From NCBI RefSeq assembly GCF_021379005.1, contig NZ_CP075171.1, forward strand, positions 4,092,001-4,156,000: 64,000 bases of DNA. Reading direction: 5' to 3'. Below, piece by piece: positions 27,676 to 47,925 of the stretch. How positions within the stretch are numbered: the stretch's first letter is position 1; each line of letters begins with the position of its first letter. The notes under the pieces are model-generated. The model did no database searches. It was not told the DNA's origin and worked only from the letters and a program-made list of their open reading frames with translations. A program made the translations under genes and the position numbers. This DNA comes from Leptodesmis sichuanensis A121. GTDB lineage: Bacteria; Cyanobacteriota; Cyanobacteriia; Leptolyngbyales; Leptolyngbyaceae.

Positions 27676-29376
27676 TTAACAGGAAACCGCGTAATGGACT
27701 AACTGCCCTAACCGCTGACGTAGGGTTTCTAAACCCAGACGCTCACTGGCTGAGATGAAAACCGCCTGGGGATGTTCTTCTTGTGCCAGGGCCAGAGTGT
27801 CTCCATCCACCTGATCGATTTTGTTAAAGACAAGCAGGGCTGGGCCAGGGGCAATCGGCATTTCCGACAGAATGCTCATCACCGATCGAATATGACTCTG
27901 CCACGCGGGATGAGATAGGTCCACCACATGCAGCAGGGCGTTGGCTTCTGTGACTTCTTCCAACGTTGCCCGGAAGGCATCCATTAAGGACGGGGGCAGT
28001 TCATGAATGAATCCCACGGTGTCTGTGAGCAGAATCTGCAACGGTTCCTGGTTGAGGGGATTGGGAACAACCAGGCGGCGAGTAGTGGGATCCAGGGTGG
28101 CAAACAACTGGTCGGCTGTGTATACCTCAGCATTGGTCATCACATTCAATAAGGTAGACTTACCCGCATTGGTATAGCCAACCACCGCCACAGACGGCAC
28201 TTCTCGATGCTGGCGCTGTTGCCGCAGACGGGCACGGTGGGCTTGCAATTGGTCTACCTCCTGTTGCAAGCGGGAAATCCGCCGTTGAATCGCTCGTCGT
28301 TCTGTTTCCAGCTTGGTTTCCCCTGGCCCCCGTGTGCCGATTCCGCCTCCTAATCGAGACATCGCCTGTCCTCGGCCAGTCAGTCGGGGTAAGCGATATT
28401 CCAATTGGGCCAGTTCTACTTGTAATTTTCCAGCTCCTGACTGGGCGCGTTGGGCAAAGATGTCCAGAATCAATTCCGTGCGATCGACCACTCGCACCCC
28501 AATCTGAGTCTCTAAATTGCGCACCTGAGCGGGAGAGAGATCCCGATCGAAGACAATCAAATTCGCACCAATCGTTTGCACAGCACGGGCAATCTCTTCT
28601 ACTTTGCCCTCGCCCACCACGGTTTGGGGATGGGGATGGGAACGGCGTTGCTTCAGGATTTGTAAGACTTCTCCGCCTGCCGTTTCTACCAGCCGCGTGA
28701 CTTCCTCCAACCCATCCTGAAAGCGCTGGGCCGTGATGCCATCTGTTTGTAAACCGACCAGTAGGACACGATCGCCCTGCTGATCCACCGCCTGTCCGAC
28801 AAATTCGCGTCGGAATTCTTCCTCTAAGCCTTCTACCAGGCTAGAAAAATCTTGACCCGTCAGCACATCCAGGCTGAGTGGAGGTGAAACCGTCCAGTTC
28901 GTCTCTGGATGAGGCACGAGATGGGCCAGGTAAGTTTCCTTGATGTACCCGGTCGCGCCGCCCCCCCGCCGTTCAAAGCCACCCCCCGTTAATGTCAATA
29001 CCACCAGGGCATCCAATCGCTGAATCGCCATCATGGTCAGGGTCGATTCGCTGGGAGGCTCCAATTTAAGCTGAGTGGAAATACAGCGGATCCCGCTTAA
29101 TCGTTCTGCCCCGTAGCGCGGCAGTTCCAGTGGGGGAATCCGGGTTTGCCTCAAGGTTCCCACCCCGACCCGAATCACCTGCCCCCGGCGATTGATGTAG
29201 ACACAAACAGGTTGACCTAAGTCCGTACTGATTGCGGCAATTCGCTGGGCAAATTCGGGAGTTGTGAAACAATCCCCTGGCAGCCGTTGTTGATAAAGCC
29301 GCTGTAACTGCTTGAGTTGACTGGACTTGATGCCTTGCAGATTTCCGTAGACTGGTTCGATAGGTACTCTGGCCAA
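27676..29376 (-). CDS. hflX: GTPase HflX
   Basis: This 566-residue ribosome-binding GTPase splits stalled or stressed 70S ribosomes in E. coli. G1 is GYTNAGKSTLLN around residue 400, G3 is DTVGFIHELP and G4 NKID. The HflX-specific glycine-rich segment is GRGQAMSRLGGGIGTRGPG and upstream of it is TVVGEGKVEEIA. The protein is about 140 residues longer at the N terminus than E. coli HflX, a usual feature of cyanobacterial HflX. The start ATG at 29376 gives MARVPIEPVYGNLQGIKSS. It is convergent with the tamB-like gene and upstream of the AT-rich region that precedes the ISAzo13 element. Confidence 0.95.
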   Translation of the reverse strand: MARVPIEPVYGNLQGIKSSQLKQLQRLYQQRLPGDCFTTPEFAQRIAAISTDLGQPVCVYINRRGQVIRVGVGTLRQTRIPPLELPRYGAERLSGIRCISTQLKLEPPSESTLTMMAIQRLDALVVLTLTGGGFERRGGGATGYIKETYLAHLVPHPETNWTVSPPLSLDVLTGQDFSSLVEGLEEEFRREFVGQAVDQQGDRVLLVGLQTDGITAQRFQDGLEEVTRLVETAGGEVLQILKQRRSHPHPQTVVGEGKVEEIARAVQTIGANLIVFDRDLSPAQVRNLETQIGVRVVDRTELILDIFAQRAQSGAGKLQVELAQLEYRLPRLTGRGQAMSRLGGGIGTRGPGETKLETERRAIQRRISRLQQEVDQLQAHRARLRQQRQHREVPSVAVVGYTNAGKSTLLNVMTNAEVYTADQLFATLDPTTRRLVVPNPLNQEPLQILLTDTVGFIHELPPSLMDAFRATLEEVTEANALLHVVDLSHPAWQSHIRSVMSILSEMPIAPGPALLVFNKIDQVDGDTLALAQEEHPQAVFISASERLGLETLRQRLGQLVHYAVSC

Positions 29377-29878: not shown

Positions 29879-31199
29879 GGAGCTTGCAAATAAATAAAAT
29901 ACCAGTCATTTTAGCGGGAGCAGAGCGGAAATATCCCTCTCCTGGCTGAGAATCTCTAGAACAACACTCTCCTTACCATGCTCGACGACAAGATTAAAGC
30001 AAGCCTGAAAGATGCTGCTCGAAAGCTGACTGGACACCGTAAGCGAGATTTTATCGCAAAAGTTGCAGAGGACTATTTTGACGGTTCAGCCCGGAAAACG
30101 GAAACGGTTTTAGGGTGGAATCGCGCCAGTGTGCAACTGGGTCTGCATGAACGCCGCAGTGGAATCACCTGTGTTGATAACTATCGAGCTAGAGGGCGGC
30201 ATAAAAGCGAAGTGGTGTTGGTCAATTTGGAAGCCGATATTGCCAGTTTAGTGGACAGGCAAGCCCAAGCTGATCCGAAATTTCAATCGACCTTCTTATA
30301 TGCTCGTATCAGTGCCCAAGCCGTCCGAGATGCCTTAAGTGAGCAGAAGGGCTACGACGAGGAACAACTGCCTTCGCGTCAGACCATTGGGGCAATTCTC
30401 AATCGCATGGGATATCGCCTAAAAAACACAAAAAGTCAAACCGTTGAAGAAGATCGCTCAAACCGATGCCATCTTTGACAATGTTGCTCAAGAGAATCAA
30501 CGGGCTGATGCCAATCCGAAGTCCTTGAGGCTCTCGATTGACACCAAAGCCAAAGTTAAGATCGGCAATCTATCGCGTAATGGCAAGGATCGCACTCTAG
30601 AAGCCAGAAAAGCCGACGACCACGATAGTGAGTGGCAGTCGGTGTTAGTGCCTTTGGCATTCTCAATCTCGACAACGACGAGTTGTCGATTTACTTCGGT
30701 CAATCGGCTGAAACCAGCGATTTTATAGCCGATTGTTTGGAGTGGTGGTGGCAGGACAATCAAGACCATTACCCGGAGATTGAGGAATGGGTGATCAATT
30801 TAGATGGAGGACCCGCCACTCGCAGTGATCGCACTCAGTTCATCAAACGCATGGTTGAACTCGCCCAAACGATCATGCTCCCGATTCGATTGATTTACTA
30901 CCCGCCTTATCACAGTAAATACAATGCCATTGAACGATGCTGGGCAGCGCTTGAGCAGTATTGGAATGGAGCCATCTTGGATTCGGTAGAAGCGGCAGTT
31001 CAATGGGCCAGTCACATGACCTGGAAAGCAATGAATCCAGTCGTTTATCTGGTTGAAGGCATTTATGAAAAAGGGGTCAAGGTATTGGCTGAGGAGCTAG
31101 CAGATTATCTCCCTTTCTGGCAACGGTCTGAAGCTCTGCCCAAATGGGATATTACTATTCTCCCCGATTGATTGGGATATTATTTAATTGCAAACCCCC
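29879..31199 (+). mobile_element. ISAzo13-type insertion sequence, 1.32 kb
   Basis: Element ends are set by the interrupted hairpin repeat. The left end begins GGAGCTTGCAAATAAATAA; the right end, reversed, begins GGGGGTTTGCAATTAAATAA. These are imperfect terminal inverted repeats. TA (or CTA) lies on both sides: 29877-29878 and 31200-31201. The single transposase gene is frameshifted twice. Because the repeat halves are still alignable, insertion is fairly recent. Confidence 0.85.
29978..31171 (+). pseudogene. ISAzo13 family transposase with two frameshifts
   Basis: Three successive frames make one transposase of about 395 residues. Part 1 (29978-30478) includes KASLKDAARKLTGHRKRDF and ends at NRMGYRLK. 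Part 2 carries KPLKKIAQTDAIFDNV, SIDTKAKVKIGNLSRNGKDR with a DDE Asp. Part 3 (from about 30632) carries VGVSAFGILNLDNDEL, VINLDGGPATRSDR and YYPPYHSKYNAIERCWAALE. The first break is at an A6 run near 30420, where five A would restore the frame; the second, near 30630, is opposite in sign. Two compensating indels argue for decay. The A-AAA-AAC heptamer present in phase would give a -1 shift, not the +1 shift needed. Confidence 0.85.
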
Positions 31200-33200: not shown

Positions 33201-33222
33201 TCCTATCTAGATTACCTACCTG

Positions 33223-33258
33223 AAAGGGCGCTTTCTCTCAGAGGGAGCGCCCTTTTGT
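33223..33258 (+). terminator. Rho-independent terminator of psbA
   Basis: AAAGGGCGCT (33223-33232) pairs with AGCGCCCTTT (33246-33255) around a loop of about 13 bases and is followed by TTTTGTT. Strong GC stem plus T-tract, about 20 bases after the psbA stop. Confidence 0.9.
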
Positions 33259-33312: not shown

Positions 33313-36285
33313 ATGACGTTAACGCAGGTCTGGGGAGCGCTGATCATTTTTGGGGTGTGTCCGCTGTTGGGTGGTCTGCCCCTGATTGATTGGATTACCC
33401 GACTCGTTACCGGGCGATCGCTCACCCGCTTAGGTACAGGTAACATCAGCGTTTCTGCTGCCTTTTATCATGGCGGTCGTCTGGTTGGGATCCTGGCTGT
33501 GCTTTCGGAAGCATTTAAGGGGATTGCAGCGGTTCTGCTGGCGCGAGTGTTCTTTCCAGCAGATCCCGTTTGGCAGATCGTGGCTCTCATCGCTCTGGTG
33601 ATGGGGCGCTACTGGATTGGCCGGGGAGCAGGAACCACCAACGTTGTGTGGGGGTACGTCGTCTTTGATCCCCGCGTCGCTGGTCTGGTATTCCTGATTG
33701 GGGGTATTAGTTTCACCATTTTAAGAGAACGCCGGCAGGCCAAATTTGGCATTCTCGTTCTGGTGTTCCTAGTTACTGCGCTACTTCATCCTCAGGATCT
33801 GGAGTTGATCCTGGCCACGATCGTCCTCACCTTTCTGTTGGGCTGGATTTACACCAAAATTCCGGATGATTTGAGTATGGCTTCGCACTCGGCTCAGTTA
33901 GGTTCTCGTTCTGTGTTTCGCTTTTTTAGGGGGGAACGAGGTATTCGCAGTCTGGACGATCGTCTGGATGTGAACAAGTTTGGCCCCAAAGCCGCCACTC
34001 TCGCTGATCTCAAACGGCTGGGCTATCCCGTGCCCCCTGGCTGGGTGCTGGCGGCAGGAGATGATCCCCAACCCTTAGTCAATGGGCTGGATCCTTCCCC
34101 CCAACAGCCGTTGATTGTGCGATCGTCTGCCGTTGGAGAGGATTCCGAAATTGCTTCAGCGGCAGGACAGTATGAAAGCATTTTGAACATTACCAGCCGA
34201 GCCGCCCTGGAACCCGCCATCACTCGCTGCTTTGCATCTTACAATCAAGCCGCCGCCACGCAGTACCGCCGCGATCGGGATCTGCCGGATACTTCAATGG
34301 CCGTTCTGGTACAAAAGCAGATTCAGGGGGTGTTTTCTGGGGTTGCCTTCAGCCGGGATCCGATCGCGCGCCAGGGCAATTCCGTCGTGATTGAGGCGCT
34401 CCCTGGAAATGCCAATCAGGTTGTTTCAGGACGAGTTACTCCAGAAACCTACCGGGTGCTCCTGGATGATGTCACCTTTGAAATGCCGAAAGACCAGCCT
34501 CCTGGAAATCGACAAGCACCGTGGGTACTTCCCGATCATCTCACCTTACCTATTGAAGGAACTGGCGATCTTCCACCCCGACTGATTCAGCAAGTCGCTT
34601 ACCTGGCTCGCCATCTGGAAACGTTGTTTGGCAGCATTCCCCAGGACATTGAGTGGACTTACGATGGGCAAACGCTGTGGCTGTTGCAGGCCCGTCCAGT
34701 CACGACCCTGCTGCCGATCTGGACACGCAAGATTGCAGCGGAAGTGATTCCCGGCCTCATTCGACCGCTCACCTGGTCAATCAATCGTCCGCTTACCTGT
34801 GGGGTTTGGGGCGATCTGTTCACCATCGTTCTGGGGCCACGATCGCGAGGACTGGATTTTAACGAAACGGCCACCTTGCACTATTCCCGCGCCTATTTCA
34901 ATGCCTCTTTGCTGGGCCAGATTTTTCAATTAATGGGGTTGCCTCCCGAAAGCCTGGAGTTTTTAACCAGGGGTGCTAAGTTCAGTAAGCCTCCCCTGCG
35001 CTCGACCTTACGGAATCTTCCAGGATTGCTCCGATTAGCTCGCCGGGAATGGCGGTTAGAAGCCGATTTTCAGCGGGACGATCGCCAAACCTTTACCCCA
35101 GCCTTAGCCAAACTATCCCATCAAACCGTGGATAGTCTTTCCCCTGGTGCTCTATTAAGCCGGATTGATGAAATTCTAGGCTGGTTGCAACAGGCCACCT
35201 ACTACAGCATCCTGGCACCTCTCAGTGCCGCCTTACGCAAAGCGATCGCTAAAGTGGATGCAGATGATCTCGATAACAGTGCCACCCCCGAAGTTGCTGC
35301 CCTGCGCTCGCTCCAGGAACTCGCCCTGACTGCCCGCCGCCTCCTGGAACAACACGCCGAATTTTCGCTTTTGAATGCCACGCAGGACAATTCAAAATTC
35401 AAAATTCAAAATTCAAAATTATTCTCTACCCTGGCTCAATGGCCGGAAGGACAAGCCATTCTCACCCGATTTGATCAGTTGATAAACTACTACGGGTATT
35501 TGAGTGAGGTGGGAACCGATATTGCTGTGCCCACCTGGAAAGAAGACCCACAACCCATTCGGGATCTGTTTGCTCAATTTTGTCTGAATCCATCCCCCCC
35601 ACCCTCCAAGCGCCCCCCAAAAAGCAGGAAGGTGAAGCGTTTGCAGCGCCGATTTGACCTGAAGGGCCGGGTAACAGAGGTCTACAGTCAGCTACTGGCA
35701 GAATTACGCTGGAGCTTTGTGGCTTTAGAGCAACACTGGTTGACATTGGGTTGGTTGCAGGTACCTGGGGACATTTTTTTCCTGGAGTTTAGCGAGATCC
35801 GATCGCTAGTTGAACAGGAGCCGTCAGCGTTGAACATGAACCTGGCCGACTTGATTGCGCAACGAAAATCCATTCTGGAGCGCGATCGCCAACTGGAAGC
35901 CCCTCCCTTTTTGGTCTATGGCAATGATCCCCCTCTACCTCTACTCCATCGCCAGTGGAAGGCTTCTCAGCAAATTCAGGGGATTGGAGCCAGCCCAGGA
36001 CAGGCTGAGGGGCGAGTCCGGATTGTCAACAGCCTGGATGGGTTGCCGGAAGTGGGACGAGATACGATCGTCGTCGTTCCTTATACCGATTCTGGTTGGG
36101 CACCCCTACTGGCCAGAGCCGGCGGCTTAATTGCCGAAGTGGGCGGACGGCTCTCTCATGGGGCAATCGTCGCCAGAGAATACCGCATTCCAGCCGTCAT
36201 GGATGTCCCTCATGCAACTCAGCGATTACACGATGGTCAACTCATCCGGATTGATGGTCAGCAAGGTACGGTGGAAATCCTCTAA
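33313..36285 (+). CDS. Fusion: PlsY-like membrane domain + PEP/pyruvate-binding (PPDK/PEP synthase-like) domains
   Basis: This ~990-residue protein joins two unrelated modules. Residues 1-200 form a multi-helix membrane domain resembling the glycerol-3-phosphate acyltransferase PlsY: LTRLGTGNISVSAAFYHGG matches the first PlsY motif, LSEAFKGIAAVLLARV the second, and GRYWIGRGAGTTNVVWG the third only loosely. From about residue 220 an ATP-grasp PEP/pyruvate-binding domain follows (NKFGPKAATLADLKRLGYPV, VRSSAVGEDSEIASAAGQY, DIEWTYDGQTLWLLQARPV). The C terminus is a PEP-utiliser phosphohistidine domain, GGRLSHGAIVAREYRIPAV with His952 (numbering from 33304). The PEP-carboxyl TIM barrel of PPDK is missing. 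Function is unknown; a phosphotransfer-linked lipid reaction is speculation. ATG 33313 is chosen over TTG 33304. Confidence 0.82.
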   Translation: MTLTQVWGALIIFGVCPLLGGLPLIDWITRLVTGRSLTRLGTGNISVSAAFYHGGRLVGILAVLSEAFKGIAAVLLARVFFPADPVWQIVALIALVMGRYWIGRGAGTTNVVWGYVVFDPRVAGLVFLIGGISFTILRERRQAKFGILVLVFLVTALLHPQDLELILATIVLTFLLGWIYTKIPDDLSMASHSAQLGSRSVFRFFRGERGIRSLDDRLDVNKFGPKAATLADLKRLGYPVPPGWVLAAGDDPQPLVNGLDPSPQQPLIVRSSAVGEDSEIASAAGQYESILNITSRAALEPAITRCFASYNQAAATQYRRDRDLPDTSMAVLVQKQIQGVFSGVAFSRDPIARQGNSVVIEALPGNANQVVSGRVTPETYRVLLDDVTFEMPKDQPPGNRQAPWVLPDHLTLPIEGTGDLPPRLIQQVAYLARHLETLFGSIPQDIEWTYDGQTLWLLQARPVTTLLPIWTRKIAAEVIPGLIRPLTWSINRPLTCGVWGDLFTIVLGPRSRGLDFNETATLHYSRAYFNASLLGQIFQLMGLPPESLEFLTRGAKFSKPPLRSTLRNLPGLLRLARREWRLEADFQRDDRQTFTPALAKLSHQTVDSLSPGALLSRIDEILGWLQQATYYSILAPLSAALRKAIAKVDADDLDNSATPEVAALRSLQELALTARRLLEQHAEFSLLNATQDNSKFKIQNSKLFSTLAQWPEGQAILTRFDQLINYYGYLSEVGTDIAVPTWKEDPQPIRDLFAQFCLNPSPPPSKRPPKSRKVKRLQRRFDLKGRVTEVYSQLLAELRWSFVALEQHWLTLGWLQVPGDIFFLEFSEIRSLVEQEPSALNMNLADLIAQRKSILERDRQLEAPPFLVYGNDPPLPLLHRQWKASQQIQGIGASPGQAEGRVRIVNSLDGLPEVGRDTIVVVPYTDSGWAPLLARAGGLIAEVGGRLSHGAIVAREYRIPAVMDVPHATQRLHDGQLIRIDGQQGTVEIL
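35389..35424. repeat. STRR tract inside the PlsY/PPDK-like gene
   Basis: Heptamer AATTCAA repeated about four times (CAATTCAAAATTCAAAATTC...). It is read in frame as NSKFKIQNSKL around residues 696-706 (numbering from 33304), between the ATP-grasp part and the C-terminal part. Confidence 0.85.
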
Positions 36286-41625: not shown

Positions 41626-44600
41626 TTATGGGCTGGTGACATTAATGATTACGGTCACTGGCGCAGAAGACAGAACACCATTGGTAGCCCGGTACGCAAA
41701 ACTATCAGTTCCCACAAACCCAGGATTAGGAACATAGATGAAAGAGCCATTATTGGGGTAGTTTATCAATTGTCCATTCCTGGGGGTGGGTGGAACGGCG
41801 GGTATCAATGAAAGAGGCAATCCTGCTGGATCAATATCATTGGCTAATAATCCTGGTGCATCAATGGTCAGGGTTTGGCCTGCCGCCACACTATAGATAT
41901 CTGTGACAGCAGTGGGGGCAGCCGCTACTGTAATGGTGGCCGTCGTGGGATTAGATAGCGCAATGCCATCACTGGCTTGATAAGTAAAGCTGTCCAAGCC
42001 TGAAAAACCAGCATTCGGCGTGTAACGGAACGTACCATTTGAGTTAAAGCTCAGGGTTCCATTCTGCGTGGTGGTATTGAGTGTCGCTGTGAGGACTGTA
42101 CCGGGATCGGCATCGGTGTCATTTAAAAGAATTCCCTGGGTAGGAATTACCGTCAGAGTACTCCCAGTCGCAATGGTATAGCGATCGGGATTGACAACCG
42201 GGGGTGTATTAGGAGCCACAGAAATGGTGACCGTTGCGGCATTGGAAACAGTTAGACCATCACTAAACCGATACACAAAGGTATCAACTCCCTGGAAGTT
42301 AGGATTGGGTCTGTAAATAAAGGAGCCATCTGGATTTAAGGTGGCCAGACCACTGACTGGCCCGGTCACAATTGTCGCAGTTCGAGCATTGCCGGACACA
42401 TTCGGGTCGGTGTCGTTGGTCAGAACTCCGTTGAGCTGGCTCACTGTAAGCGTGCCGTTGGTTGCAGCTCGATAGGTGTCAGAAACAGCAACGGGTGTGC
42501 TGACTGAACGGACGGAAATCGAGACTGTAGCCGTGTTAGAGGTAGCCTGACCGTCACTAGCGGTGTAGGTAAAGGTATCCGTACCCTGGAAGTTGGCATT
42601 AGGAATATAGACAAAGGAGCCATTGGGACTCAAAGATAGGCTACCGTTAGCTGGCTGACTGACTAAATTGGCCGTCAGGGTAGGGTTATCTGCATCCGTA
42701 TCATTCCCCAATACGCCAAGGACACCACCAGAAACCGTGAGTGGAGTTCCTACGATCGCAGTGTACCCACTATCATTTCTGGCCACCGGAATGGCATTCA
42801 CTCGAATACTGACCGTCGCCGTGTTGGAGGTGCCAGTGCCATCGGTAGCAACGTAGGTAAAGCGATCGTTGCCAGAGTAGCCTGCATTCGGCGTATAAAC
42901 CAGGGCTCCAGTCGGAGCAAGAGATAGGGTACCGTTGGTCACTGTACTGACTACAGTGGCGGATAACGGTCTGCCCAACGGGTCTGTATCGTTGCTGAGG
43001 ATACCAGGAGCCGGAATATTCAAAGAACTTCCCGCATTCACCGAAAGCGTATCATTGTTAGCCGTCGGTGCGGCTCCTGGAGTCACACTAAAGGTGACAG
43101 TGGCAGGAGTTGAGGTGCCGCCTAAGCTATCACGAGCCACATAGGTAAAGGTGTCGTTACCAGTGAAATTGGCACGAGGAATGTAGGTAAAAGTACCATT
43201 CGGGTTGAGCGTGAAAGTAGCCGCATTCGCAGGAGCAACTAGCAGACTGGCAGTCAGGGGAATGTTGTTATCTGGGTCAGTGTCGTTGGTCAGGACGTTC
43301 CCCACCGTTAAAGTGCTGTTAGCTGGGGTGGTAAAGGTATCACCATTAGCCACTGGCGGTTGATTGGTAGGGGTGACTGAAGTCACACTAAAGGTGACCG
43401 TGGCAGGAGTTGAGGTGCCGCCTAAGCTATCACGAGCCACATAGGTAAAGGTGTCATTACCAGTGAAATTGGCACGAGGAATGTAAGTGAAAGTGCCATT
43501 CGGGTTGAGCGTGAAAGTAGCCGCATTCGCAGGACCAACCAGCAGACTGGCGGTCAGGGGAATGTTGTTATCTGGGTCGGTGTCGTTGGTCAGGACGTTC
43601 CCCACCGTTAAAGTGCTGTTAGCTGGGGTGGTAAAGGTGTCACCATTGGCCACTGGCGGCTGATTGCTAGGGGTAACTGAAGTCACACTAAAGGTGACAG
43701 TGGCAGGAGTTGAGGTGCTGCCTAAGCTATCACGAGCCACATAGGTAAAGGTGTCGTTACCAGTGAAATTGGCACGAGGAATGTAGGTAAAAGTACCATT
43801 CGGGTTGAGCGTGAAAGTAGCCGCATTCGCAGGAGCAACTAGCAGACTGGCAGTCAGGGGAATGTTGTTATCTGGGTCGGTGTCATTGGTCAGGACGTTC
43901 CCCACCGTTAAAGTGCTGTTAGCTGGGGTGGTAAAGGTGTCACCATTAGCCACTGGCGGTTGATTTGGAGTCAGAGTAACAATAATGTTAACGGTGGCGG
44001 TATTGAGGGAGTTTAAGCTGCCGTCATTGGCCCGGTAGGTAAAACTGTCTGTTCCCGTGAAGCCTGCTCGTGGCACATAGGTAAATGACCCATTGGAGTT
44101 GAGGTTCAACGTACCATTAGCTGGGGATGAAACCAAAACTGCCGATAAATTAGAACTATCAATGTCAGTGTCATTTGCGAGAATGCCAGGAGCTGTAATC
44201 AAGAGAGAACCACTTGAACCTGTTGTGTAGCTGTCATTTACGGCCACAGGTGGCTGATTCACAGGGGTAACGGTGATGGTAACGGTAGCGATGTTTGAGA
44301 TGGCTCCTAAAGCATCTGTGACCCGGTAGGTGAAACTGTCGCTGCCGTTGAAGTTAGTAATGGGTGTGTAGGTAAACGTACCGTTAGGATTCAGGGTGAA
44401 GGTAGCGGCTCTGGTGGGGCCAGCAGCCAGTTGAGCGGTTAAGGGCAGAGTGAAATCGGGATCCGTATCGTTCCCTAAGACGCTACTACCGTTCAGAGTA
44501 TTATTCTGCGACACACCATAGGTATCGTTGGTAGCTATGGGAGCAACATTCACAGCATCGCCTACGTTGACAAACAGGGTTTTAGTGTCAGATAGGGGTA

Positions 44601-47600
44601 ATCCGGTACCGGTGTTGCCATTATCGTTGACGCTGATAGTCACGCGATCGAACGCATTGGTAAAGCCAGGGTAGCTGCGATAGGTGAGCGTAGCCAGCGC
44701 ATCATTAATGGCAAATAGGGGGCCACTAAAGGTAAGGCGATTGCTGGGGTTGCCATTGCCCTGAGTGAACGTTAAGCCATTGGTGGATTTCAGGCTGACC
44801 AGACCATTGGCGGCTGTAATTGTAACTGCCATAGTGCCGCCTGCCGCATCCGGATCAGCGATACCCACGCCAGCGATAGATAAATCTGTATCGGAGTTAA
44901 CCGTGGGTGAAGTCGGTAAGGTAATGGTTGGCGGCTGATTGATACCCAACACATTGACCGCGATCGTCTTAGAGTCTCCCAGGGCAACCCCAAAGCCTGT
45001 ATTACCGTTATCACTGACACTAATTGAAATGGCATCTGAGCCTCGGAAATTGAGATTACCCCGATAAATCAGCGTATTCAGGGCCGCATTAATGGCTGAG
45101 AGTGAGCCTGTAAAGATCAGCGTGCTATCCTGAGTTCCTGTTCCCGTCTGGAATGTTAGCCCATTGATTGAACCCAAAGTCAGCTTGCCATTAGCAGCGG
45201 AAATCGCCACACTTAAATTTCCTGCTCCAGCATCCACATCTTGAACAGTAATGCCCGTAATCCTGAGATCGATATTTTCGTTAGCAGTCTGGGCGGGTGG
45301 AACGGTCAGAACCGGAGCATCGTTGACCGGAGTGACGGTAATACCTAGCGTCTTGGTATCGGAGAGGGGAATGCCGTTCCCAGTATTACCATTGTCATTA
45401 ACGCTGATGATTAATGAATCGGGGCCATTGAAGTTGGGATCACTTTGATAAATCAGGTTATTAAGCGCGTTATTCACGGCAGACAGCGTGCCTGTGAAGA
45501 CTAGATTCTTTTGCTTAATGGCATTGTTACCGCTCACACTCAGTCCAGCCGTGGAATTCAGAGAAACAACTCCGTTCACCGCCAAAATACTGGCTGTAAC
45601 GAGTCCTGAATTCGCATTGGGATCGGCGATCGTAATACCCACAATCGGGGAAGGAATATCTTCACTGATGCTCACCGATGCAGGAAGGCTGATCAGAGGA
45701 GGCTGATTGACAGCAGAAACGGTCAGAGTCGTAGATTTCGAGTCGCCGAGGGGGCCACCCAACCCGGTATTGCCATTGTCATTGACCCCGATCGTCAAGA
45801 CATCCGTTCCCTGAAACGTCGCATTACTCCGGTAAACCAGGGACTGCAGAACAAAGTTGATCAGATCTAACTGACCACTGAACGACAGCGTTGAAGTGCC
45901 ATTTCCCTGCAACCCAGTGAGGTTATTTGTCCGGCCTAAGGTGAGAGTTCCGTTTTGTACCGATAGAGTAACCGTTAAAGCACCTGCTCCAGAGTCTGGG
46001 TCAGCCACTTGAATGCCACTGATCAGGACGTTAGTGTTTTGATCCAGGGTGAGCGAACCGGGAACAGTTAATACAGGGGAGTCGTTAACAGGGGTAACGG
46101 AAATGTTGAAGGTCGTCGTGCCAATACTTCCTCCGGCTCCATCGGCAACCGTAAAGATGAAGCTATCGCTGGTCGTTTCGCTCCCGTTATGGATGTACTG
46201 AATTCGGTTGCCACTATCCAGATCGGCCTGAGTGAAGGTGGTTCCAGGTGTAGCGATCGCCCCATTCACTGACAGAGTGCCGTTCGTTGGTAAACTGCCC
46301 AGGGTATAGGTTATTTGAGCAGCAGTGTTATCGTTATCTGTGACTCTTAACTGACTGCTGGTAAGATTGGCAGTCCCCTGTTCATTCACAGGTAGAGGAG
46401 TATTCGTCGCTAATACGGGTAGATTATTGACACTGATTTGCAAGGAGTAGGGACTGCGATCGCCTGCGTTATTGGGAATAACTTGAATGTAGTAAGTTCC
46501 TGCAGTTAAAGTTCTGGCAATAAACTCAGGTGTTAAGTCAGGGGCCGCCACAGTTTGAAGAATGCCGCCATTTTCATCCAGCAATTGCAGATCTAAATTG
46601 GCCGTAAAGCCAGTGAGAGACAGATTAACCTGACTACTGCTCCCCAGAGTGAATTTGTAGAAGTCTGTGCTGACGCTGCTAATGGTGTTCTGATAGCTGC
46701 CAGTACCCGTTACATTGGTACCCAGATCAAACGCGGTTGCAAGAGTATCACCCGCAATATCGATCGGATTCGGTTCACCCAGTGCTTTATAGGGAACTGT
46801 GGAGATCCAATCAGATAGGGCAGGGGGTAAGGAATAGGCACTGACAAAGCTGACTCCATTGAGTAGCCAAACTCCATTAGCCGTCGTACTATAGTTTCGC
46901 CAAAGTAGATCAACAGAGCCATCATTGTTAAAGTCATCTGTCCCCGCGATGAACCAGTCCGATGGAACATCGCTGGATAGAAAAACACTTGAGGACAGGC
47001 TGATCCCATCCATTAGCCAAACTCCGGCTAAGCGATTCTGGCTGTTTTGCCAAACGATATCCGGCTTTCCATCTTTATTAAAATCGCCAACTCCGGCGAC
47101 TCGCCAAATATCAGGCACCCCCTCAGAGATAATCGAGGGCGCAACAAATTGGGTGCCATTCATGGCCCAAATACCAACTATCCCTGCAGCATCATTCCGC
47201 CATAACAGATCCGTTTGGCCATCCCCTGTAAAATCTCCGGTTCCTCCTACATACCAACCCAGAGGAGCCGCAGGTGTCGGCACAATGGATGCAACACTGA
47301 CTCCATTCATCAGCCAGATTTGAGTTGCCCCAGTATTAAAATTTCGCCAAAAAATATCCGATTGACCGTCTTTATTGAAATCTCCAGTTGCATCGGCCAC
47401 CCAGCCAGCACCTGGGTTAGAAGTGAGCAATTGCGTTGAGGTCAAGCTAGCACCAGTCACTTGCCAGATGCCGGTCTCATCTGAAAACGGATTCCGCCAT
47501 AGAATGGCACTGTTGACGGCATTGGTTCCCTTCGTGACATTCAGGGTATAGTTGGCGATCGCCACCGACGGGGCCGCAGTGACCCGAATGAAGTAAGTCC

Positions 47601-47925
47601 CTGGATCCAGTATTGTGTTGATGGACTCAGCCAAATTCCCTGAGTTGGCCGATCGCTGGGGAACGCTATTAACGGTCAGCAGATTACCCTCACTGTCCAG
47701 AAGGGCGACATCTGCATTGGCATCCAGATTAGTGAGTGACAAATCAACACTGCTGCGGGTGAGCAGGCTAAAGCGGTAGTAATCGCTTGTCGTAGAAGTG
47801 ACGAGGTCTGGGAAACTCTGAACACTTGTAGTCAGATTCAGTGTTGTAGCGGTAGCAAGAGAGTTTCCGGCGATATCTGGCATAGCTAATAACCCTGTAC
47901 TGGCATAGCTATTCTGCCCTACCAA
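41626..47925 (-). CDS. Giant repeat protein: PPC domains, FG-GAP/VCBS-like repeats, tandem-95 Ig-like repeats
   Basis: This 2099-residue protein is probably secreted or surface-exposed. Order: a PPC (pre-peptidase C-terminal) domain at about 16-130 (DIAGNSLATATTLNL ... PGTYFIRVTA); five or six FG-GAP/VCBS-like repeats at about 137-375 (GDFNKDGQSDIFWRN, GDFTGDGQTDLLWRN); a second PPC domain at about 385-495; one cadherin-like unit; four units of about 115 residues ending VNDNGNTG; then about ten ~100-residue tandem-95 units (GNVLTNDTDPDNN, TFTLNPNGTFTYIPRANF). No signal peptide, LPXTG or RTX nonapeptides are seen; the DxDxDG sites likely bind Ca2+. It may be exported by a type I or other system. 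Likely roles are adhesion or matrix building, by family analogy. Confidence 0.85.
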   Translation of the reverse strand: MVGQNSYASTGLLAMPDIAGNSLATATTLNLTTSVQSFPDLVTSTTSDYYRFSLLTRSSVDLSLTNLDANADVALLDSEGNLLTVNSVPQRSANSGNLAESINTILDPGTYFIRVTAAPSVAIANYTLNVTKGTNAVNSAILWRNPFSDETGIWQVTGASLTSTQLLTSNPGAGWVADATGDFNKDGQSDIFWRNFNTGATQIWLMNGVSVASIVPTPAAPLGWYVGGTGDFTGDGQTDLLWRNDAAGIVGIWAMNGTQFVAPSIISEGVPDIWRVAGVGDFNKDGKPDIVWQNSQNRLAGVWLMDGISLSSSVFLSSDVPSDWFIAGTDDFNNDGSVDLLWRNYSTTANGVWLLNGVSFVSAYSLPPALSDWISTVPYKALGEPNPIDIAGDTLATAFDLGTNVTGTGSYQNTISSVSTDFYKFTLGSSSQVNLSLTGFTANLDLQLLDENGGILQTVAAPDLTPEFIARTLTAGTYYIQVIPNNAGDRSPYSLQISVNNLPVLATNTPLPVNEQGTANLTSSQLRVTDNDNTAAQITYTLGSLPTNGTLSVNGAIATPGTTFTQADLDSGNRIQYIHNGSETTSDSFIFTVADGAGGSIGTTTFNISVTPVNDSPVLTVPGSLTLDQNTNVLISGIQVADPDSGAGALTVTLSVQNGTLTLGRTNNLTGLQGNGTSTLSFSGQLDLINFVLQSLVYRSNATFQGTDVLTIGVNDNGNTGLGGPLGDSKSTTLTVSAVNQPPLISLPASVSISEDIPSPIVGITIADPNANSGLVTASILAVNGVVSLNSTAGLSVSGNNAIKQKNLVFTGTLSAVNNALNNLIYQSDPNFNGPDSLIISVNDNGNTGNGIPLSDTKTLGITVTPVNDAPVLTVPPAQTANENIDLRITGITVQDVDAGAGNLSVAISAANGKLTLGSINGLTFQTGTGTQDSTLIFTGSLSAINAALNTLIYRGNLNFRGSDAISISVSDNGNTGFGVALGDSKTIAVNVLGINQPPTITLPTSPTVNSDTDLSIAGVGIADPDAAGGTMAVTITAANGLVSLKSTNGLTFTQGNGNPSNRLTFSGPLFAINDALATLTYRSYPGFTNAFDRVTISVNDNGNTGTGLPLSDTKTLFVNVGDAVNVAPIATNDTYGVSQNNTLNGSSVLGNDTDPDFTLPLTAQLAAGPTRAATFTLNPNGTFTYTPITNFNGSDSFTYRVTDALGAISNIATVTITVTPVNQPPVAVNDSYTTGSSGSLLITAPGILANDTDIDSSNLSAVLVSSPANGTLNLNSNGSFTYVPRAGFTGTDSFTYRANDGSLNSLNTATVNIIVTLTPNQPPVANGDTFTTPANSTLTVGNVLTNDTDPDNNIPLTASLLVAPANAATFTLNPNGTFTYIPRANFTGNDTFTYVARDSLGSTSTPATVTFSVTSVTPSNQPPVANGDTFTTPANSTLTVGNVLTNDTDPDNNIPLTASLLVGPANAATFTLNPNGTFTYIPRANFTGNDTFTYVARDSLGGTSTPATVTFSVTSVTPTNQPPVANGDTFTTPANSTLTVGNVLTNDTDPDNNIPLTASLLVAPANAATFTLNPNGTFTYIPRANFTGNDTFTYVARDSLGGTSTPATVTFSVTPGAAPTANNDTLSVNAGSSLNIPAPGILSNDTDPLGRPLSATVVSTVTNGTLSLAPTGALVYTPNAGYSGNDRFTYVATDGTGTSNTATVSIRVNAIPVARNDSGYTAIVGTPLTVSGGVLGVLGNDTDADNPTLTANLVSQPANGSLSLSPNGSFVYIPNANFQGTDTFTYTASDGQATSNTATVSISVRSVSTPVAVSDTYRAATNGTLTVSQLNGVLTNDTDPNVSGNARTATIVTGPVSGLATLNPDGSFIYRPNPNFQGVDTFVYRFSDGLTVSNAATVTISVAPNTPPVVNPDRYTIATGSTLTVIPTQGILLNDTDADPGTVLTATLNTTTQNGTLSFNSNGTFRYTPNAGFSGLDSFTYQASDGIALSNPTTATITVAAAPTAVTDIYSVAAGQTLTIDAPGLLANDIDPAGLPLSLIPAVPPTPRNGQLINYPNNGSFIYVPNPGFVGTDSFAYRATNGVLSSAPVTVIINVTSP
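43081..43980. repeat. Three tandem 300-bp units in the giant gene
   Basis: Units start at 43081, 43381 and 43681, each beginning AGTCACACTAAAGGTGAC. The period is exactly 300 bases (100 codons). By eye unit 1 and unit 2 differ at about 14 positions, unit 1 and unit 3 at only four or five until unit 3 diverges near 43965. They encode the tandem-95 repeats NQPPVANGDTFTTPANS... Confidence 0.9.

Follow-up and report, generated by a model that had tools for sequence, protein, structure and literature searches.

What an enzyme might do that joins a membrane domain resembling PlsY, the glycerol-3-phosphate (G3P) acyltransferase, to ATP-grasp and phosphohistidine domains is the question raised by a gene at 33313..36285 (+) of the window, the 64,000 nucleotide stretch of Leptodesmis sichuanensis A121 DNA analysed here. 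The open reading frame, placed exactly so by the original prediction, is supported by Pfam, orthologues and an AlphaFold2 model, and codes for 990 amino acids from an ATG or 993 from a TTG 9 bases upstream; both peptides quoted in the prediction, GTGNISVSAAFYHGG and GGRLSHGAIVARE, are found in its product. The protein is made up of a PlsY-like 7-TM domain, an ATP-grasp domain, a substrate domain and a phosphohistidine swivel domain, and the fusion as such is borne out by Pfam matches above cut-off together with AlphaFold and structure comparison.

The PlsY-fold membrane domain comprises residues 1-186 (33313..33870, +), as judged from PF02660, the domain model, structural superposition and conservation, with PF02660 (G3P_acyltransf) scoring 59.7 bits against a cut-off of 24.1 across residues 16-178. 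It is followed by an ATP-grasp domain of the PPDK/RPH type at residues 213-465 (33949..34707, +; PF01326 and the alignment to RPH-Lm), a long helical substrate-binding domain at residues 466-885 (34708..35967, +; Foldseek to RPH-Lm and conservation), which takes the place of the RIF-binding domain of RPH, and the phosphohistidine swivel domain at residues 886-990 (35968..36282, +; PF00391 and the RPH-Lm alignment). Here PF01326 (PPDK_N) reaches 152.3 bits over residues 264-465 and PF00391 (PEP-utilizers) 76.6 bits over residues 917-985, both above their curated cut-offs. The full-length AlphaFold2 model, built with 49 orthologues, has a mean pLDDT of 79 and a pTM of 0.57, and so the relative placement of its domains is uncertain. 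Its best Foldseek matches are RPH-Lm structures (5hv1, E 3.5e-28 over 926 columns), and Foldseek and HMMER also find the ATP-grasp protein HpeI (9goj). Foldseek matches the N-terminal domain to PlsY (5xj5-5xj8); modelled alone, this domain has a pLDDT of 93 and compares by VIA with PlsY 5xj7 at Z 18.7 over 179 residues and 2.7 Å, the next unrelated chain standing at Z 5.0. The resemblance to PlsY that had been suspected is thus one of homology, in sequence (PF02660) and in fold.

An assembly chimera, of which the prediction had warned, is ruled out because full-length single-ORF orthologues of about 55-67% identity occur in more than 100 cyanobacterial genomes. Across the phylum 123 of 386 genomes match the fusion at E <= 1e-20, most of the same-class matches among them spanning the full length and some lying in pieces, and at 109 extracted loci one ORF accounts for the match over essentially its whole length. 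A scan of GTDB gives 126 relatives, the best 80 of which come from Leptolyngbya-, Oscillatoria-, Nostoc-, Scytonema- and Pleurocapsa-like cyanobacteria and others. All 194 genomes of the class sample carry a PF02660 gene and by a hand count well over half carry two or more, so that well over half of the sampled Cyanobacteriia have, as a further PlsY-fold gene, a non-canonical one that is in nearly all cases of the fusion type; the small-genome groups (family f19) are without the fusion. The gene tree largely tracks the families, which suggests that inheritance has been mostly vertical. An apparent case of the two halves as adjacent genes (G215) was rejected as split-gene evidence, the second frame having no credible start and the break sitting inside WIYxKIPDD, as would fit a frameshift or an error in sequencing. 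Besides G170, other genomes of genus g52 (G412, G427 and G504) have three PF02660 places.

The prediction likened the rest of the protein to PPDK or PEP synthase without the TIM barrel but with the mobile His kept, and much of this stands. PEP-utilizers_C (PF02896), the barrel, has no match in the fusion protein (Pfam, E 1), and His949 (codon at 36157..36159, +, within GGRLSHGAI), the predicted phosphate carrier, aligns with His825 of RPH-Lm. What does not stand is a trimmed PEP synthase: the protein is an ATP-grasp/phosphohistidine enzyme specifically of the RPH type, with the His domain last. PEP synthase and PPDK have homologous ATP-grasp and swivel domains, but in another order and with a PEP/pyruvate barrel that the fusion lacks, and identity with PEP synthase was rejected on the absence of that barrel and the presence of separate PEPS-type genes in the genome, where PPDK_N genes of 817 and 851 aa stand apart from the fusion.

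In RPH the order is ATP-grasp, substrate domain and C-terminal swivel (PMC4844700), and the fusion has this order, no PEP barrel, the ATP-site Lys and Arg and the swivel His. The alignment to RPH-Lm, which begins at residue 264, pairs Arg270 with Arg117, and Lys226, which precedes it, is presumed from its motif to correspond to Lys22; the roles of Lys22 and Arg117 in RPH are described in PMC4844700. Lys226, Arg270 and His949 are invariant in the A1 alignment. The top-ranking NCBIfam model is that of the RPH/PEPS-like PRK06241 group, with the RPH and PigC/RedH models close by, and all equivalog matches (RPH, PigC/RedH, PlsY) are far under their cut-offs. For RPH (NF041857) the score is 218 bits against a cut-off of 999, and so by this measure the fusion is not rifampin phosphotransferase proper. 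It differs from RPH (5HV1, 5FBS) further in its identity of about 20%, in the N-terminal membrane domain that it alone possesses and in a diverged middle domain with an invariant block of its own, residues 466-582, which at 79.9% mean pairwise identity is the best-conserved stretch of the protein. HMMER aligns to RPH-Lm the ATP-grasp domain and all beyond profile position 672 but not the block between, and the Arg666-Glu667 pair of RPH, which contacts the phosphate of RIF-P, falls in a gapped region of this alignment. Because the most conserved block lies where HMMER finds no alignment to RPH-Lm, the substrate of the fusion probably differs from rifampin.

Two other groups are among the nearest known systems. 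The two-component phenol dikinases HpeHI, phenylphosphate synthase PpsAB and CreHI have the same three functional domains, but in two soluble proteins of phenolic catabolism and with no membrane domain. The prodigiosin ligases PigC and RedH are an example of RPH-like chemistry harnessed to drive ligation; the fusion matches their RPH-like profiles at 220-232 bits, far under the equivalog cut-offs of 1300-1350, and the matched model is without a PlsY domain.

The N-terminal domain keeps the frame of PlsY and has a reworked site. With A. aeolicus PlsY (5XJ5-5XJ8) it shares the 7-TM fold over 179 residues, the motif 1 frame GTGN/GSGN, the E(D)AxKG motif and a glycine-rich loop 3, and it differs in a changed clamp, a shorter loop 3, the want of motif 3 and the added kinase module of 800 aa. 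PlsY is an acyl-phosphate enzyme that clamps G3P by Ser35, Arg45, Lys104 and Asn180 and meets the 2-OH by Ser142 and His177, and the A. aeolicus enzyme keeps 1.1% of its activity in R45A, 7.4% in K104A, 4.6% in N180A, 6.5% in H177A, 2% in H92K and 17% in S35T (PMC5700162). When 41 orthologous N-domains are aligned with the solved PlsY and canonical cyanobacterial PlsYs, Ser35 is found as Thr42, Arg45 as Tyr52, His92 as Arg99 and Lys104 as Ala106, loop 3 is shorter by about five residues, and motif 3 (HreNI..R, with His177 and Asn180) is absent by sequence and profile alignment. The weak third motif of the prediction was an understatement, the motif being absent and Arg45 and Lys104 replaced as well.

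These changes to the G3P clamp are fixed over nearly the whole family, several at once. The fusion has its own motifs, GTxNxSVSAAFYHGG (41-55), EAxKG (66-70), GRYxxGxGAGTTNVVWG (98-114) and IYxxIPDD (179-186), and its own invariant residues, Asn44, Val47, Ser48, Phe51, Tyr52, His53, Glu66, Lys69, Arg99, Gly107, Thr109, Asn110, Asp185 and Asp186. The PlsY equivalog TIGR00023 gives 25 bits against a cut-off of 137.2, and a true plsY (177 bits), for which the prediction had advised a search, is found elsewhere in the source genome together with plsX. Since the clamp residues are lost, invariant residues of its own are present and a true plsY and plsX exist elsewhere, we conclude that some other role keeps the domain under strong selection and that it is very unlikely to acylate G3P. 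Its mean pairwise identity is 62.2%, against 60.4% for the ATP-grasp domain, and 36 of its 186 columns are invariant, which is more conservation than a mere anchor would need.

Lineages in which both halves degenerate bear on whether these work together. In three f14 genomes motif 1 is deleted, ATP-site residues 226, 276 and 277 are lost and His949 has become Gln; in the sister pair G091 and G174 Thr42 is Ile or Ala, Ser48 is Ala and His949 is Gln, with Gly950 changed to Ser in G091 and to Ala in G174; the second copy in G170 is without the substrate domain, its motif 1 being broken and its ATP-site residues altered; and G056 has Asn for Thr42 and Lys for Glu276. Every lineage that has lost Thr42 or motif 1 is one of these and so also shows changes in the kinase or swivel, no sequence among the orthologues compared combines such a loss with an unaltered kinase core, and the change of His949 to Gln is seen only alongside motif 1 changes. 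The pattern rests on about four independent events on the tree, the degenerate lineages being few and tree-correlated, and the Fisher test of co-decay ignores phylogeny, its value being overstated through shared ancestry. Given this joint decay of the PlsY-like motif and the kinase/His site, and the matching levels of conservation, both halves probably serve one reaction. The change of Asp349 to Asn in family f11 is probably neutral, because a PEPS-like relative has Asn there too.

Two of the degenerate forms are worth describing in themselves. The clade of loci L114, L115 and L116 (G211, G083 and G058) keeps the fusion at full length in open ORFs of 916-932 aa and is apparently a pseudoenzyme, having lost motif 1 of PlsY, residues of the ATP site and the swivel His. 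The second copy in G170 (L119:2332-4134, 601 aa) retains a PlsY-like domain, a partly degenerate ATP-grasp domain and the swivel domain.

The account to which we give slightly better than even credence is that the fusion is a membrane-integral RPH-type dikinase acting on a membrane lipid that is held or processed by the PlsY-derived domain. RPH (PMC4844700) and HpeHI (PMC12167813) are known to pass phosphate from ATP through His~P to a hydroxyl and to release AMP, and the invariant Lys226, Arg270 and His949 would be expected to support the same chemistry here. By analogy with RPH, ATP bound by the ATP-grasp domain would phosphorylate His949 on the swivel domain to give AMP and Pi, and by homology to RPH and HpeHI the swivel domain would then carry the phosphate to the substrate domain, which would be held at the membrane surface through fusion to the 7-TM domain. 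The PlsY-derived domain would most likely bind or position a membrane lipid, or else use the phosphorylated product, and from the coupling of the two sites, which we infer, would come either a phosphorylated lipid or an ester made via a phosphorylated intermediate in the PlsY cavity. A lipid substrate is the simplest reading, because the domain that ties the kinase to the membrane has relatives which bind acyl phosphate inside the bilayer; phytol, polyprenol and quinol or tocopherol phenols are conceivable candidates. Alternatively, what the substrate domain works on might be soluble, the PlsY part then serving only as anchor or lipid sensor.

A tentative alternative, of perhaps one chance in several, is an ATP-driven lipid acylase, in which the kinase module turns a free fatty or other lipophilic acid into an acyl phosphate and the PlsY-derived domain hands its acyl group on to some acceptor that is not G3P, for a net conversion on one polypeptide of free acid, ATP and acceptor to ester, AMP and 2 Pi. 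PlsY uses acyl phosphate (PMC5700162) and the kinase could make this donor on site; the acyl-phosphate-hole loop is kept, glycine-rich and invariant (GxGAGTTN), the residues lost being mainly the G3P ones, and the two sites co-decay. However Arg99 replaces His92 in the phosphate hole and Ala106 replaces Lys104, at positions where A. aeolicus PlsY falls to 2% activity with H92K and to 7% with K104A, and the RPH-type enzymes of the cited literature phosphorylate hydroxyls and not carboxylates. Stated more broadly, and held just as tentatively, a one-polypeptide lipid enzyme might use ATP via the phosphohistidine arm to activate a lipid or fatty acid, with the repurposed PlsY domain completing transfer to a non-G3P acceptor; this would be an ATP-driven acyl-phosphate or phospholipid route outside PlsX/PlsY and Fak, and one common in cyanobacteria.

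It is rather improbable that the membrane domain serves only to anchor the protein or to sense lipid while the kinase, like RPH with rifampin, inactivates at the membrane a toxin or antibiotic that is soluble or amphipathic. The nearest solved structure is indeed a resistance kinase, but the fusion gene is widespread and apparently mostly vertical in descent, the PlsY-like domain equals the catalytic domain in conservation and carries invariant motifs of its own, and both the unaligned substrate-domain block and the low RPH equivalog score stand against it. That the PlsY-like domain is still a G3P acyltransferase, boosted or fed by the kinase module, is hardly credible despite the PF02660 match above the Pfam cut-off and two genomes (G051 and G064) with the fusion and no canonical plsY, given the change of Arg45 to Tyr and Lys104 to Ala and the absence of His177 and Asn180 (each Ala mutant keeping at most about 7% activity), the TIGR00023 score, the canonical plsY in the source genome and nearly all fusion carriers, and the several unlinked loci missing from G051, where the plsY gap may be an assembly fault.

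Those two genomes (L165, L166 and L176; near-complete assemblies) keep the fusion, plsX and plsC-like genes. G051 is also without DUF3086 and both MlaE-type permeases present in its congener, G064 is without the plsY-operon copies of the MlaE-type and DUF3086 genes found in relatives, and the absence of plsY affects only 1 of 2 congeners for G051 and 1 of 16 for G064. Replacement of plsY by the fusion is not relied on, other unlinked genes being missing and few congeners affected; the absence may be an assembly gap or a true loss. Canonical cyanobacterial plsY, as we take it to be, adjoins a DUF3086-type gene in loci L138:1429-3356 and L131, the order in L131 being a putative MlaE-like permease, a putative DUF3119-like gene, a putative DUF3086-like gene and then plsY.

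Conserved neighbours of the fusion are found in Nostocales loci only (L011-L104), where a divergent membrane-anchored GDSL/SGNH hydrolase lies about 0.5-2 kb upstream in 46 loci and a cupin protein just downstream in 28, both possible functional partners. Among the loci compared there is no operon partner common to several families, and no lipid pathway was found in the gene neighbourhood outside Nostocales.

We class the fusion among the RPH-type dikinases, as one made membrane-integral through a non-canonical PlsY-derived domain. No paper on a PlsY–RPH-type fusion was found among open-licence PMC papers, and so while each half belongs to a known fold family, their combination, the reworked PlsY site and the wide conservation are apparently undescribed in that literature. 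PlsY and PEP synthase are names that annotation may readily give to such proteins, and the evidence argues against either. If the dikinase does act on a lipid, this would put RPH-type chemistry at the membrane and give a PlsY-fold domain a function other than G3P acylation, and would point to an unmapped step in cyanobacterial lipid metabolism.

In the window the fusion gene has psbA upstream, and a hairpin with a T-run, aaagggcgctttctctcagagggagcgcccttttgtt, read from the sequence at 33219..33257 (+), lies between the two. It is absent from the listing of a terminator-consensus scan, and is likely the psbA terminator; co-transcription with psbA was rejected on account of this strong hairpin and T-run, and because the hairpin likely terminates psbA the fusion gene is probably transcribed on its own. 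Further upstream, between a gene for a GTP-binding protein (27676-29376) and psbA, two ORFs at 29978-31171 resemble a frameshifted DDE-type transposase split in two. At 41626-47925 (-) the window also codes for a 2099-aa protein with many similar cadherin-like or Ig-like repeats (TNDTDP...FTYTP), the N-terminal repeats of which are FG-GAP-like.
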